NCBI GenBank assembly: GCA_015055805.1
Contig: SVHN01000006.1
Location: 1-64,000, forward strand
DNA: 64,000 bases
Source of the DNA: Clostridiales bacterium
Lineage (GTDB): Bacteria > Bacillota > Clostridia > Christensenellales > Borkfalkiaceae
Direction of reading: 5' to 3'
The notes under the pieces: generated by a model
Seen by the model: the letters and a program-made list of their open reading frames with translations, nothing else
What the model was told of the DNA's origin: nothing
The model's database searches: none
In this document: in pieces, positions 12,963 through 17,944 of the stretch
How the letters are laid out: every line of letters starts with the position of its first letter
Position numbering within the stretch: position 1 is the first letter of the stretch
Position numbers and translations under genes: made by a program

Positions 12963-12993
12963 AGTTGCTTTTATTGAAAGGCAACTTTTTTTG
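12963..12993 (+). terminator. Riboswitch expression-platform terminator
   Basis: AGTTGC (12963-12968) pairs with GCAACT (12981-12986), extended by a TTT/AAA stretch, then an eight-base T run. It lies 35 nt behind the aptamer and 20 nt before the symporter ATG. Confidence 0.85.
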
Positions 12994-13012
12994 TTACAAG
13001 GAGAAAAAAGGT

Positions 13013-14467
13013 ATGAAAGAATTTTTATCTTGGCTGGAAAATGCCGTTGAAACGGTGAACTCCTATCTTGCAGACTGGGTTTTAGTAATATTACTCGTAG
13101 GCGTAGGTCTGTTTTATACCATTAAAACGCGTTGCGTTCAAGTCCGCTGTTTTGGTCAGGGCATGAAAAACGTGTTCGGCGGTATGAAGTTTAAAGGTGA
13201 AAAAAGCAAGGGCGGCATGAGTTCTTTTCAAGCGGTGGCAACCGCAATCGCTGCGCAGGTCGGTACGGGAAATATAGTCGGCGCGTGCGGCGCAATCTTG
13301 CTCGGTGGACCGGGCGCAATATTTTGGATGTGGATTATTGCTTTTCTAGGTATGTCCACTATTTACGCTGAGGCTGTACTTGCTCAAAAAACAAGAATCG
13401 TTAACGAAGACGGCTCGGTATCGGGTGGTCCCGTATATTACATACGCACGGCGTTTAAGGGCAAGTTCGGTAAATTCCTTGCTGGGTTTTTTTCCGTTGC
13501 CGTAATAATTTGTTTAGGCTTTGTTGGCGCAATGGTTCAATCTAATTCTATAAGTTTGGCTGTCGCAAACGCAGGCGGTTACGATTATGAAAAATGGGGT
13601 TGGATTGTTGGTATAGTTCTTGCCGTGCTTGCAGGAATTATATTTATAGGCGGTGCAAAGCGAATTGCGTCGGTTACCGAAAAGATAGTTCCTATTATGG
13701 CGGTCGTTTATCTTCTTGGTGGACTTATTATTTTATGCTTTAATATCACGGCTGTTCCAACTGCTTTGTGGTACATTATTAAATATGCTTTCGCTCCTAA
13801 CGCTATAATAGGTGGTTCGATAGGTTACGCCTTAAAAATGGCTATAAGCAAGGGTGCGCAACGCGGACTTTTCTCTAACGAGGCGGGTATGGGTTCTACA
13901 CCGCACGCCCACGCTCAGGCAAACGTCAAAACAGCGCACGAACAGGGTACTGCTGCAATGATAAGCGTGTTTATCGATACGTTCGTCGTTCTTACAATGA
14001 CTGCACTTATCGTCATTACTTCGCTTTACGTAAAGAATCCCGAACTCGTTGAAACGGCAGATAAGAATACTATGGTGCAAATGGCAATAACTTCGCTTTT
14101 CACTAATGCTAACGTCGGCTCGCTTGTGGGCGGAATATTCGTTGCAGTATGCCTTACTTTCTTTGCTTTCTCGACCATTATCAGTTGGAACTTGTTTGGA
14201 AGAATTAACTTTGAATACTTGTTCGGCAAGAAATCGTCCGTGGTTTATTCGTGTTTAGCAATTTTGTTTGTTTTCCTAGGCGCATTTTTAGGTAGTAACT
14301 TGGTATGGAGCTTTAACGACTTCTTTAACTATTTAATGGTACTTCCCAACGTAATTGCGCTCTTTGCATTGTCTGGAATGGTCATAAAAGAACTAAAAAC
14401 CAACGGCAAAGGAACGTCAGCAGAAGAAACCCCGAACCAAGCCCTAGGCGAAAATTTAGAGAAATAG
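13013..14467 (+). CDS. Sodium:alanine/glycine symporter (AGCS family)
   Basis: 484 residues from the ATG at 13013 (AAGGAG upstream); in-frame starts further up lie in the terminator. About 11 membrane segments, with the family blocks F-Q-A-V-A-T-A-I-A-A-Q-V-G-T-G-N-I-V-G, G-G-P-G-A-I-F-W-M-W and S-N-E-A-G-M-G-S. AGCS carriers take up alanine or glycine with Na+. Control by a glycine riboswitch points to glycine as the relevant substrate, probably uptake for catabolism or relief of excess. Confidence 0.93.
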   Translation: MKEFLSWLENAVETVNSYLADWVLVILLVGVGLFYTIKTRCVQVRCFGQGMKNVFGGMKFKGEKSKGGMSSFQAVATAIAAQVGTGNIVGACGAILLGGPGAIFWMWIIAFLGMSTIYAEAVLAQKTRIVNEDGSVSGGPVYYIRTAFKGKFGKFLAGFFSVAVIICLGFVGAMVQSNSISLAVANAGGYDYEKWGWIVGIVLAVLAGIIFIGGAKRIASVTEKIVPIMAVVYLLGGLIILCFNITAVPTALWYIIKYAFAPNAIIGGSIGYALKMAISKGAQRGLFSNEAGMGSTPHAHAQANVKTAHEQGTAAMISVFIDTFVVLTMTALIVITSLYVKNPELVETADKNTMVQMAITSLFTNANVGSLVGGIFVAVCLTFFAFSTIISWNLFGRINFEYLFGKKSSVVYSCLAILFVFLGAFLGSNLVWSFNDFFNYLMVLPNVIALFALSGMVIKELKTNGKGTSAEETPNQALGENLEK

Positions 14468-14552: not shown

Positions 14553-14581
14553 TTGATAAAATGACAAAAGTGTGCTATACT
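14553..14581 (+). promoter_or_regulatory. Promoter of the orphan leader RNA
   Basis: TTGATA (14553-14558), 17-nt spacer ending in TGTGC, TATACT (14576-14581). The predicted start is at or next to G14588, the first base of the closing stem below. Confidence 0.85.
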
Positions 14582-14587
14582 AACTTC

Positions 14588-14784
14588 GGCGTACAATTTA
14601 ATATAGATCTTAAATGACTAACCCAAAGGGATTTTTTTACTTTTTTGGGGCATACTCTTCGTTATAAATTTGTTAAAATACAAATTCCACATGAAGAGTG
14701 ATTAGTCATTTTCATTAAATTGTACGCCAACAATCGGAGTTTGTGTTTTTGTGCGTTAACTTCGGTTGGCGCACTTTTTATTTT
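14588..14784 (+). ncRNA. Candidate riboswitch-like leader RNA with terminator/antiterminator switch
   Basis: The closing stem is perfect over 15 bp (14588-14602 with 14714-14728). A second perfect 10-bp stem lies inside it (14612-14621 with 14702-14711), then a branch: CCCAAA (14622-14627) with TTTTGGG (~14643-14649), and ACTCTTC (14654-14660) with GAAGAGT (14693-14699) capped by an AAATTTG/CAAATT loop stem. A terminator follows: GTGCGTTAAC (14751-14760), a TTCG tetraloop, GTTGGCGCAC (14765-14774) and a T-rich tail. GTACGCCAAC (14722-14731), the 3' strand of the closing stem, can instead pair with 14765-14774 in 9 of 10 positions, so closing stem and terminator would exclude the antiterminator. 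It matches no riboswitch class I know. Confidence 0.7.
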
Positions 14785-14797
14785 ATAGGTGGTTTTT

Positions 14798-15787
14798 ATG
14801 AAAAATTTTACTAACAAGATTCTAGATGTTGTAAAGAAAGTTTTGGATTGTTTTAGCAGGTTTTCAACCAGAAAAAAAGTTGTTGTGTTTTGTATCGTTG
14901 TTGTTTTTCTATGTTTCGGGATTGTTGGTGCTGTATCTTGCGTTTCAAATAATATTAATCACAACGTGATTTTAATATTAATGGAAAAAGATGGTACTAG
15001 CATACAAAAAAAGCTAACGAAGCGTAGCAGCGGAGACACTATATATGCTCCAAGTGATTATAAGATTTATCCATCTTTAATAGAGGGGTTTGTTGTTGTA
15101 GATGATTGTTGGTATTTAACTGAAGAAAGGACTAACACTATTTACTTTCCTTATTCCATGCCCAGTCATAAACTAACATTATATGCAAATGTAAGACCAT
15201 TGACAAAGATAGAAGATTTGAAATTTTCCGATTCTAACAATGTGCATGATTATTTTTCTTCTAATAGTGAATTGCAAGATGAATTTTCAAGTAAGCCCAA
15301 TATCAATAGTGAAACATCGTATTACGAAATATGTGAAAAAAGCGTTTCATCAATTAAAAACATTGTTAGATATTATCCAGCAACTAAAAGCGTGGTGCTT
15401 AAACGAGGATATTCAATTAGTGAAAATATGGGGAATGAGGCTCTAGTTTCAGATGAGTTTACTATAAACGTGATAATAGATTTGGAGCACGAGACTATAA
15501 CATGTAAAGGAATATATTCACGAATGGGATTTTCTAAAAATTCTAGCGTTGGGGGAAGTGTTAACATATTGTATAATGTTGCTCAAATATCGATAGATGA
15601 TATTGAACAACCTTTATTTCCAAACTTTTCAACTGTTGACTATACGTATGATATAAGTAGTGCCACAAATAGTAAAAAGATGCAAGAACTTTGGAATGCA
15701 GATGGGTATGATTATGCCAAAAAGTGTTATGCTCAAGTAAACAAATTGTTGAAAACAATGAATCAAAGAGTGATAGTGCTTTCTTAA
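14798..15787 (+). CDS. Membrane-anchored extracytoplasmic protein with InlB/Flg_new-like repeat
   Basis: 329 residues; the ATG at 14798 follows AGGTGG. A basic N-terminal helix precedes one membrane segment (~27-48), and the rest should be outside the cell. Residues ~60-130 resemble a Listeria-Bacteroides (InlB B / Flg_new) repeat: G-D-T-I, a W-Y-L-T-E-E strand, then M-P-S-H-K-L-T-L-Y-A. The remaining ~190 residues match nothing I recognise. Codon use is clearly more AT-rich than in the flanking core genes, which suggests transfer. It sits directly behind the orphan leader and 23 nt before a P-loop NTPase gene. Confidence 0.65.
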   Translation: MKNFTNKILDVVKKVLDCFSRFSTRKKVVVFCIVVVFLCFGIVGAVSCVSNNINHNVILILMEKDGTSIQKKLTKRSSGDTIYAPSDYKIYPSLIEGFVVVDDCWYLTEERTNTIYFPYSMPSHKLTLYANVRPLTKIEDLKFSDSNNVHDYFSSNSELQDEFSSKPNINSETSYYEICEKSVSSIKNIVRYYPATKSVVLKRGYSISENMGNEALVSDEFTINVIIDLEHETITCKGIYSRMGFSKNSSVGGSVNILYNVAQISIDDIEQPLFPNFSTVDYTYDISSATNSKKMQELWNADGYDYAKKCYAQVNKLLKTMNQRVIVLS

Positions 15788-15810: not shown

Positions 15811-16260
15811 ATGAAAATAATAGCATTGCAGGGGAAATCAAATATAGGAAAAACCACGGTTATAACAAAGCTTTATCACAAATTGTGTGTTTCTTATAAA
15901 AGAAAAAACTTTAGCATAAGTAACCAAGATGGTGATTTTGCCGCAATATTTGATATAAACTCACACATTATAGGGATAACTTCGATAGGCGATTACGAAA
16001 AAGATTTAATCGAGCCTTTTAAAATTTTTGAAAATAATAATTGCGAATTATGCGTGGTATGCTGTCATAAAAAGCATGAAACTAATGGTTCAAAAAACTT
16101 TATAGAAAGCAAGGCAAAACAATACGGCGTAAATATAATGTGGTACACAAAAGCATACTTAGGAACATGGAATACACAATATAATTGTGGTGTTGAAATT
16201 GATGCTATAAATGATATACAAGCAAATATATTATTGAAAGAGATATTGTTGCAAATTTAA
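15811..16260 (+). CDS. Small P-loop NTPase of unknown function
   Basis: 149 residues. A Walker A motif (L-Q-G-K-S-N-I-G-K-T-T-V) starts at residue ~6; a hydrophobic strand L-C-V-V-C-C-H ending in H/K rather than D/E stands where Walker B would be, so hydrolysis is uncertain. The layout (beta-strand, P-loop, then a strand with N-Q-D-G-D-F) resembles small SIMIBI/MobB-like NTPases. The ATG at 15811 has GGTG upstream; a longer frame overlaps the previous gene. AT-rich like its partner at 14798, with which it is probably co-transcribed. Confidence 0.6.
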   Translation: MKIIALQGKSNIGKTTVITKLYHKLCVSYKRKNFSISNQDGDFAAIFDINSHIIGITSIGDYEKDLIEPFKIFENNNCELCVVCCHKKHETNGSKNFIESKAKQYGVNIMWYTKAYLGTWNTQYNCGVEIDAINDIQANILLKEILLQI

Positions 16261-16409: not shown

Positions 16410-16486
16410 GGCGGCGTAGCTTAGTTGGTTAGAGCGGCCGGTTCATACCCGGCAGGTCGTTGGTTCGAATCTGACCGCCGCTACCA
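16410..16486 (+). tRNA. tRNA-Met (anticodon CAT)
   Basis: 77 nt with a full cloverleaf: acceptor GGCGGCG with CGCCGCT, D-loop TTAGTTGGTTAGA, anticodon stem GCCGG/CCGGC around TTCATAC, T-loop TTCGAAT and encoded CCA. The paired first base pair (G-T) favours elongator rather than initiator Met. A lysidine-modified tRNA-Ile(CAU) cannot be excluded without comparison. Confidence 0.93.
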
Positions 16487-16548
16487 CTATAACAACAACG
16501 GCGTACGCGTCGAAATATAAAGGCGGAAACAATCCGCCGACAGATCAA

Positions 16549-16623
16549 GGCCCCTTGGTCAAGCGGTTAAGACACCACCCTTTCACGGTGGTAACATGGG
16601 TTCGATTCCCGTAGGGGTCACCA
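16549..16623 (+). tRNA. tRNA-Glu (anticodon TTC)
   Basis: 75 nt: acceptor GGCCCCT with AGGGGTC, anticodon stem CCACC/GGTGG around CTTTCAC, T-loop TTCGATT, encoded CCA. It lies 62 nt behind tRNA-Met under the same promoter. The decayed integrative element begins right after it, so its 3' end was probably the integration site. Confidence 0.95.
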
Positions 16624-16632
16624 AAATCGAGA

Positions 16633-16664
16633 AAAATCAGTCAGTTTTGACTGATTTTTTGCTT
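16633..16664 (+). terminator. tRNA operon terminator
   Basis: AAATCAGTCA pairs with TGACTGATTT around a short loop, then TTTTTT. Confidence 0.85.
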
Positions 16665-16810
16665 TTATAAGCACTTTTCACCCTTGATTTAAATGTGCGT
16701 TGACCACTTTTAATGTTTTTTTGGAAAGTTTTATTTTGCATTTTGTCACAGTTTTTGTCACAGTATAACATATAGAAAGGCAGGAGTTTCTAATTCCTGC
16801 CTTTTGCTAT

Positions 16811-17944
16811 TTAATAGTTCAACTTTGCTCCTTCTTTTAGTAAATATTCGTCTGACACGTCAGTATAAGCATTTCCAAGTTCGCCAAGAGAGTGTCCTAC
16901 GAAAAGTTTTTGCGCTATTTCTGATACTCCACACTCGATACACCTAGAATAAAAAGTTGTTCTTAGGTCATATAGAATATGATTTGGTAATATAGAATTG
17001 AATTTTTCTCTTAACGTATATGGCTTATAAAAACTTATTTCTTGATTATCTTTTATGTAAGGTTTAAGCATGGGTGTAATTGGTATTTTCTTATATTCAG
17101 TCTTACCATTTTTACGTTTGCTGTTTATAGCAACAATAAATTCACCATCACGCTTTGCTGTTTCATATTCGTTAGGACGCAACCCTGTATAAAGTGCTAT
17201 GGCAAACATAAGTTGATATTCGCTTTCGACTGTTGATTCAAGCAAGTGTTTTTCCTCGGCTTTTGTCAACGCCTTTCCGTGTTTTCTATCGTGTTTTAAA
17301 TGAATAACTATATCCAAAGGATTTTTTGTAAGTATTCCATGAGCAATTGCCGCTTTGAAAATAATTGACATTAGCGAATAAATTTCTTCGGAAGTTTTAC
17401 CTTTGCCGGAATTAGATATTTCTTCAATTAAGTCTTGACATTCCAAAGAAGTTATTTTTGTTAAAAGTTTTTCTTCGAAGTAAGGTTTAAGATATTTTTT
17501 GTATCTTGATAAATCGTTTTCATAGGTTTTTTCTTTGACTTTTTTCTTTCTAAAGTTTTCAAAGTGAAACATCGCAAAGGAGTTGAACGTCATCGGGGCA
17601 ACGGTTGTTCTTTTGTTTATCTTTTCGGCCGTTTTTAACTTTTCTATAAATTTTTGTTTTGCAGATTCAAGATTTCTATCCGTAACGAAAACGCTATATC
17701 CGTTGCGCCGATATTTTATGTCGTATGTAAATGCATTTTTACTTACCTTTCTTTTATATACTCTTGCGGTGCAACCATCTGTTCTAAATTCTTTTCTAAA
17801 AGTTTTCGGCATTTTATTTATCTCCTTTTGAGTGAAATTAATGTTCACACAGGTTTTTTCATTTGAATTTTTATTGTCATCAATAATAGGCTGTGCTAAT
17901 TTTAATTGTTCTAATAACGCTGTTAGATTTTTCATCTGCGTCAA
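16811..17944 (-). CDS. Tyrosine recombinase / integrase
   Basis: 377 residues from a TTG at 17944. The frame stays open without ATG or GTG for ~75 bases further upstream, past a GGAGG at ~18000, so the true start is unsettled. It has an N-terminal arm-binding part (~55-105), a SAM-like core-binding domain (~115-205) and a C-terminal catalytic domain with R256 (T-G-L-R-P), R328 (Y-D-L-R), H351 (V-G-H-S) and nucleophile Y360. The usual first His of the HxxR box is Tyr325. This is an ICE/phage-type integrase sitting 190 bp from the tRNA-Glu 3' end and pointing toward it, the normal arrangement for a tRNA-targeting element. Confidence 0.88.
   Translation of the reverse strand: MTQMKNLTALLEQLKLAQPIIDDNKNSNEKTCVNINFTQKEINKMPKTFRKEFRTDGCTARVYKRKVSKNAFTYDIKYRRNGYSVFVTDRNLESAKQKFIEKLKTAEKINKRTTVAPMTFNSFAMFHFENFRKKKVKEKTYENDLSRYKKYLKPYFEEKLLTKITSLECQDLIEEISNSGKGKTSEEIYSLMSIIFKAAIAHGILTKNPLDIVIHLKHDRKHGKALTKAEEKHLLESTVESEYQLMFAIALYTGLRPNEYETAKRDGEFIVAINSKRKNGKTEYKKIPITPMLKPYIKDNQEISFYKPYTLREKFNSILPNHILYDLRTTFYSRCIECGVSEIAQKLFVGHSLGELGNAYTDVSDEYLLKEGAKLNY

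Follow-up and report, generated by a model that had tools for sequence, protein, structure and literature searches.

A probable cis-acting transcription attenuator with a pseudoknot-based strand exchange in a family of Clostridia leader RNAs

The leader, its genes and its neighbourhood

The window (the whole 64,000-nucleotide stretch of clostridial DNA analysed here) carries a promoter, a structured leader, a terminator, a ribosome site and a gene in a row, followed by a second gene (Table 1). This succession, anticipated by the original prediction, agrees with the sequence, in which the ATG of gene 1 lies at 14798. A perfect 15-bp closing stem (P1), described there as starting at 14588 and closing 141 nt, is present in sequence and fold, pairing 14588-14602 with 14714-14728 around a branched domain, and the UUCG-capped terminator with its U-run is likewise found at 14751-14779. 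The leader has a predicted folding energy of -69.2 kcal/mol, compared with -36.2 (s.d. 3.8) for shuffled sequences (z = -8.8), and none of 200 shuffles equals it.

Table 1. Features of the leader and the two genes behind it, in window coordinates
Feature	Positions	Strand	Basis or remark
Promoter TTGATA-17 nt-TATACT, TG before -10	14553-14581	+	Read from sequence
P1 closing stem, 5' strand, on the predicted transcription start	14588-14602	+	Fold; both-sided changes at 9 of 13 aligned pairs (53 relatives)
P1 closing stem, 3' strand	14714-14728	+	Fold and covariation
P2, 5' strand (partner 14702-14711)	14612-14621	+	Predicted fold only
P3 hairpin, sensor domain	14622-14649	+	Predicted fold; missing from the short subtype by eye (sequences read, not folded)
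Hairpin H, 3' strand common to the pseudoknot	14667-14686	+	Fold; 89.5% of cells paired, 1 of 7 pairs double-changed
Pseudoknot strand 1 (AAAATACAAATTCC)	14675-14688	+	14 pairs, covariation
Pseudoknot strand 2 (GGAGTTTGTGTTTT)	14736-14749	+	Covariation and subtypes
Antiterminator, 5' strand (CAATCGGAGTT), overlapping pseudoknot strand 2	14731-14741	+	Fold, covariation and subtypes
Antiterminator, 3' strand (AACTTCGGTTG), overlapping the terminator	14758-14768	+	Fold and covariation
Intrinsic terminator, UUCG-capped hairpin 14751-14774, then U5	14751-14779	+	Sequence; covariation in 53 relatives
Gene 1, 329 aa, hydrophobic segment near N-terminus by eye	14798-15787	+	No Pfam family at E 0.001
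Gene 2, 149 aa, P-loop GKSNIGKTT by eye	15811-16260	+	Sub-threshold Pfam matches only

No known RNA class had been recognised in the leader, and a search with Rfam covariance models had been suggested. Rfam 15 (4227 families) gave no match to the leader at the curated threshold and no related family at a loose one, where the matches lay far below the cut-offs. Nothing fell on the RNA in 20 loci with short forms of the element and ten further loci, and a loose scan of one short form returned matches far below cut-off only. Passages of PMC8040213, PMC11109978 and PMC8632094 contain no matching motif; the element could figure without a name among the 3161 candidates of PMC8040213.

Among the other 150 family genomes searched, gene 1 has no relative and gene 2 a single weak one. 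Upstream, a glycine riboswitch (RF00504, 12842-12936) precedes a sodium:alanine symporter gene (12965-14467). Downstream, 16410-17944 holds tRNA-Met and tRNA-Glu genes and then a minus-strand phage-type integrase gene; this may be where an element inserted at tRNA-Glu ends. In one relative (G007) the symporter is followed by tRNA-Met, confirmed by ARAGORN, with no copy detected by the covariance model described below, and in another (G006) by a further RNA copy together with a lipoprotein gene. Seven other symporter loci (L257-L263, about 1.5 kb of flank each) gave no copy with the model. By this comparison, the RNA-gene unit looks accessory at the symporter site.

Pairings kept among relatives and subtypes

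A DNA search with the leader matched 63 of 151 genomes (its own and 150 relatives), in 23 of 70 genera. Of 70 BLAST places, nine lacked a promoter match (seven true or cut copies and two chance hits), and 53 of the remaining 61 were aligned; we left out L039 and one L026 copy, which ended early, L044, whose start was misplaced, L066 and L027:440, which belong to a divergent class, and L041, L081 and L082, near-duplicates by eye. The covariance model built from this alignment takes its pairs from P1, H and the terminator. It was built without the pseudoknot or antiterminator, and scores the letters of those columns, not their pairing. Loci picked by a pattern were left out of the pseudoknot covariation because the pattern covers pseudoknot strand 2.

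As the original prediction had proposed, homologous leaders were examined for compensatory changes, and these support P1 and three further pairings. A 14-bp helix between 14675-14688 (family consensus AAAAUGCAAAUUCC) and 14736-14749, absent from that prediction, is paired in 97.8% of cells with 5 of its 14 pairs double-changed; at alignment columns 120/207, where G-C is usual, the window copy has A-U. The antiterminator is paired in 94.9% of cells (double changes in 4 of 10 pairs) and the terminator in 98.3% (5 of 10), and hairpin H shows little covariation of its own. Because the 14-bp helix crosses P1 it is a pseudoknot, and because it uses the 3' strand of H it excludes that hairpin. One strand, M (14731-14749), thus has two exclusive partners, 14675-14688 upstream and 14758-14768 downstream. 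The latter is the middle of the terminator, so that antiterminator and terminator exclude each other; alignment column 232 belongs to both and varies in step with each (U-A in 7 and 6 sequences).

Taken as whole states, P1 with pseudoknot and terminator is paired in 96.3% of cells and has 19 both-sided pairs, against 9.8 (s.d. 1.5) in shuffles (0 of 500 as high), and partners slid out of register pair in 30-46% of cells. P1 with H and antiterminator is paired in 92.8% of cells and has 14 both-sided pairs against 9.3 (s.d. 1.5; 1 of 500), with slid partners at 26-50% (at most 50.3%). Further pair types in the antiterminator state are weakly above expectation (47 against 42.5, with 21 of 500 shuffles as high), and in the pseudoknot state no shuffle of 500 is as high. 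Since related sequences can exceed shuffles without structure, we give more weight to the slid controls and to the subtypes.

The principle of an exclusive terminator and antiterminator in a cis-acting leader, as originally predicted, is therefore borne out by covariation, and the strand named for it is not: covariation supports 14731-14741 with 14758-14768 instead. The proposed partners, 14722-14731 and 14765-14774, are indeed complementary in 9 of 10 positions of the window. Across the 53 relatives, this pairing is kept in 77.0% of cells against 76.6% in shuffles, shows no covariation, and 2 of its 10 pairs fail in 39 and 46 sequences. From the sequences compared, we take this complementarity to be incidental, a consequence of conserved letters together with the window copy's own P1.

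Two other groups of copies provide a separate view of the same strands. A short subtype (about 145-175 nt), in which no P3 is apparent by eye, was found with the covariance model; a divergent pair (L066, L027) appeared first among weak BLAST matches and then among model matches too. In the divergent pair, the switching letters are altogether different from those of the long form: the pseudoknot joins AAAAGCGUAUGCCC with GGGCAAUACGUUUU, and M still fits the terminator (with UUGCC). We used 23 of 27 such sequences (leaving out L204, L218, L219:166 and L240:6114). Their own pseudoknot duplexes have median energies of -16.1 (21 short) and -18.3 kcal/mol (2 divergent), compared with -9.1 to -12.6 kcal/mol when strands are exchanged between subtypes and -13.1 among short copies. 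Antiterminator duplexes reach -16.2 (short) and -13.4 kcal/mol (divergent), against -8.7 to -14.0 exchanged between subtypes. Among long copies, exchanged pseudoknot strands (-17.2 kcal/mol) come close to their own (-18.2) because the letters are conserved.

When single sequences were shuffled, 51 of 53 long, 15 of 21 short and both divergent copies passed for the pseudoknot (at most 1 of 100 shuffles as good). The antiterminator passed (at most 5 of 100) in all 53 long, 16 of 21 short and neither divergent copy. By sequence comparison, P1, the pseudoknot, the antiterminator and the terminator, with the strands they have in common, are thus supported.

Copies, promoters and following genes in Clostridia

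With the covariance model, copies were found in at least 35 of 61 genomes of the window's relatives and in at least 73 of 291 genomes drawn from the class, in at least 44 of 180 genera. In 299 genomes drawn from the phylum, the model matched the window's own genome only, and 9 of the 20 misses listed belong to the same class. These counts are lower bounds because the filters were strict and few candidates were scored per genome (39, 8 and 7). The window's genome has three copies: the leader studied here, one on G000:C16 and a divergent one on G000:C19. A pattern scan over one genome per species (84,980 species) gave at least 119 stretches. Among the 80 listed, names are of Clostridia or Bacillota throughout, 79 are metagenome assemblies, and one is a cultured strain, Pumilibacter intestinalis CLA-AA-M10 (L132). 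Sequence similarity places the window leader in a family of RNAs that is found repeatedly in gut Clostridia and is absent from Rfam 15.

For position and cargo we assembled 228 distinct copies, with identical RNAs merged and some copies cut by contig ends kept; the members are not independent. This set omits three weak reverse-strand rows (L087:4785, L169:4672 and L055:2995) and two end pieces (L027:1-49 and L219:166-269). Length is 190-219 nt in 170 of the 228, within a range of 120-245 that includes cut copies. In the 224 copies with enough upstream DNA, a -10 element is present in 222, the TG in 198 and a -35 element in 191, whereas a control 200 nt further upstream (220 copies) gave 63, 3 and 13. 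The -10 lies 4 nt before the model start in 185 of 222 copies. On these sequence counts, the promoter belongs to the RNA unit.

A same-strand open reading frame, called by a simple script with a ribosome-site score, starts within about 320 nt in 199 of 228 copies, 15-24 nt after the U-run in 102 of the 199 (median 23). Of the 29 copies without a called same-strand gene, 13 have less than 320 nt of sequence behind them and 16 do not; eight of these 16 precede another copy within 1 kb and eight do not. The divergent copy in the window's genome (L066:6515-6663), with its rewired pseudoknot letters, is one of the latter eight. Tandem arrangement is seen in 12 of 228 copies, with another same-strand copy less than 1 kb downstream (L025:4874-5748, L026, L096, L172, L212, L238 and L239); in seven of the eight tandem copies without a called gene, the next copy follows after 93-143 nt.

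The RNA could be a stand-alone small RNA to which the downstream gene is incidental, as its own promoter and terminator, the copies that precede another copy instead of a gene, and the eight that precede neither might suggest. We consider this very unlikely, given the open reading frame behind 199 of 228 copies and the peak in its distance, and because a stand-alone RNA needs no antiterminator, yet compensatory change keeps one.

The downstream genes are diverse, and include BspA-type repeat proteins, lipoproteins, methylases, SLOG and zinc-ribbon proteins. We compared 176 of their proteins with Pfam, and 135 of these also with PADLOC and PHROG; the short-subtype proteins are among the 41 compared with Pfam alone. 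Among 25 of 67 Pfam families found in the 135 proteins are BspA-type LRR_5 (17), LRR_8 (12), the Listeria-Bacteroides repeat (7), EcoRI methylase and SHOCT (6 each), three zinc-ribbon families and Rho_N (5 each), MazE/AbrB (4), collagen-like and SLOG (YpsA) (3 each) and TIR_2 (2). Among 25 of 30 families in the other 41 are LRR_5 (4), the copper amine oxidase N-terminal domain (3), SLOG and MazE/AbrB (2 each), and S-layer, lectin, NlpC/P60 and enzyme domains, single each. Among the first 25 of 73 PADLOC and of 76 PHROG families, DNA methyltransferases predominate together with repeat or fibre-like proteins; gene 1 of the window had no match there. A crude lipobox test was positive in 33 of 137 downstream proteins of at least 100 aa against 19 of 339 other open reading frames from L085-L203, and a hydrophobic N-terminus was seen in 70 of 137 against 55 of 339; the loci behind the two sets differ in part. 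The following gene, often of surface type, is probably controlled by the chain of exclusive pairings.

In 4 of 228 copies, as identified by a strict pattern, a second hairpin of the GGTGCGACT...GGAGCACC type lies behind the RNA over the ribosome site of EcoRI-type methylase genes (L049, L035, L077 and L051); it may perhaps serve translational control.

A phage origin was considered, and viral copies are few. Three pattern scans of IMG/VR gave 0, 0 and 10 stretches, and the model confirmed the RNA in 4 of the 10, three of them with identical RNA letters. A long-type copy occurs in 1 of 50,697 phage records, none of which matched one short-type query, and 72,556 plasmid records gave no match. 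On one viral contig (L249), the RNA stands before a lipoprotein-like gene, and three RAGATH-5 matches and one DUF3800-VIII RNA are found as well.

Because adjacent copies and varied cargo are seen, we also weighed a recombination or cassette-insertion site (attC-like), or a mobile repeat that carries genes. The many copies would suit it, as would the symporter site, where tRNA-Met follows and the model finds no copy in one genome (L255) and a copy with other cargo is present in another (L256). After the covariation results we regard it as highly improbable, for the changes fit a nested RNA logic with a promoter and a U-run, and the 72,556 plasmid records gave no match.

A strand-exchange relay and its relation to known systems

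We think it likely that the window RNA is the leader of a two-gene unit and a member of a large Clostridia family of cis-acting transcription attenuators with a strand-exchange relay. Five strands would pair in a chain: the 5' with the 3' strand of H, the latter with M (pseudoknot), M with the terminator middle (antiterminator), and the terminator arms with each other. With adjacent pairings mutually exclusive, two combinations would be left. In the ON state, H and the antiterminator would form and polymerase would read through; in the OFF state, the pseudoknot and the terminator would form and transcription would stop. P1 would stay closed in both, gathering the parts, and 14731-14749 would be the switching strand. 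The choice would presumably be made during transcription.

Calculated energies place the two states close together. In ViennaRNA calculations that set the pseudoknot penalty at 9.6 and duplex initiation at 4.1 kcal/mol, the pseudoknot state differs from the best other fold by a median of -2.0 kcal/mol in the long form (quartiles -3.4 to 0.9, range -6.9 to 9.0). The median is -2.2 in short and divergent copies (range -10.3 to 13.3), and the window copy gives -2.1. The terminator forms in the pseudoknot state of all 53 long and all 23 short or divergent copies. Without the pseudoknot, the best fold is flagged with the antiterminator in 38 of 53 and 13 of 23, and with the terminator in 21 of 53 and 13 of 23, some carrying both flags. 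Step-wise folding of the growing window transcript, by a method blind to pseudoknots, keeps P1 and H and reaches the antiterminator; it would therefore take the pseudoknot to permit termination in the window copy. As the ligand-free states are nearly balanced, a factor could push them either way.

Such a balance would also suit a ligand-free leader in which folding kinetics or temperature sets read-through, so that accessory genes would be expressed weakly, noisily or according to host temperature. This seems unlikely to us, as the long domain and covarying P1, with further helices, appear to be more than a bare timer needs; beside this argument stands the apparent loss of P3, by eye, from the short subtype.

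For the attenuator with a strand-exchange relay, we favour a signal that turns the gene ON: bound to the P1-P2-H domain, it would keep H closed, and the unbound leader would mostly terminate. Because the downstream genes are so diverse, the signal is probably global, not specific to one pathway. These genes share no evident pathway, which makes a ligand from a single metabolic route unlikely and favours a global signal or a protein. One tentative proposal is a new riboswitch class for a global signal (for example, a nucleotide second messenger), with a pseudoknot-driven relay, over surface, defence-like and regulatory genes throughout Clostridia. Metabolite aptamers usually have more conserved unpaired positions than the few seen by eye in the 53-leader alignment (UAAUA after P1, and GA/ACA before the antiterminator).

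The same attenuator might be bound by a protein or a trans-acting RNA instead of a small molecule, a version about which we are somewhat doubtful. A global RNA-binding protein suits the diverse genes and the few conserved unpaired positions as well as a second messenger does, but P1 letters vary freely with compensation, so that the partner would have to read shape or the letters of H and M.

If the relay operates as proposed, many surface-type proteins of mostly uncultured gut bacteria would share one kind of control, with at least 73 of 291 sampled Clostridia genomes (about a quarter) carrying this regulatory RNA, some in at least eight copies. At least one cultured carrier, Pumilibacter intestinalis, is at hand for the problem of its orphan signal.

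Several known systems resemble the family in part. T-box leaders of low-GC Gram-positive bacteria set a terminator against an antiterminator, and the window family likewise consists of leaders in which the two compete. No Rfam covariance model for T-box leaders matches it, and no aminoacyl-tRNA-linked family is among the 25 Pfam families listed in each of the two scans. A type III toxin-antitoxin RNA (ToxI-like) would be expected as short tandem repeats ahead of a ToxN-like RNase; no ToxN-like family is among the 25 of 67 families listed (135 proteins) or the 25 of 30 (41 proteins), and the units are single structured RNAs, mostly of 190-219 nt. ANTAR, LoaP, put and JUMPstart are RNA elements that precede diverse genes and alter termination. 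The window family also precedes diverse genes, but its terminator is built in, and it has no Rfam match.

In trp-type attenuators, strands pair 1:2, 2:3 and 3:4, and the parity of pairing sets termination. The window family is similarly a chain of overlapping strands, but with one strand more and with one pairing that is a pseudoknot. A leader peptide of the trp type is not general here: a crude test for a ribosome site plus start was positive in 33 of 228 copies.

Riboswitches with intrinsic-terminator platforms consist of a 5' leader, a P1 around a folded domain, a terminator opposed to an antiterminator, and a gene directly behind, and the window leader likewise has a P1 domain, a terminator and antiterminator, and an adjoining gene. 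It differs from them in that the rival to the antiterminator is a 14-bp pseudoknot across P1, not P1 itself, that none of the 4227 Rfam families matches it, and that the downstream genes share no evident pathway. From the sequences, a cis-acting attenuator appears to fit best, with a riboswitch in the strict sense (with a small-molecule ligand) and the OFF polarity as candidates only. The family would then be a natural example of an antiterminator whose rival is a long pseudoknot and not the closing stem.
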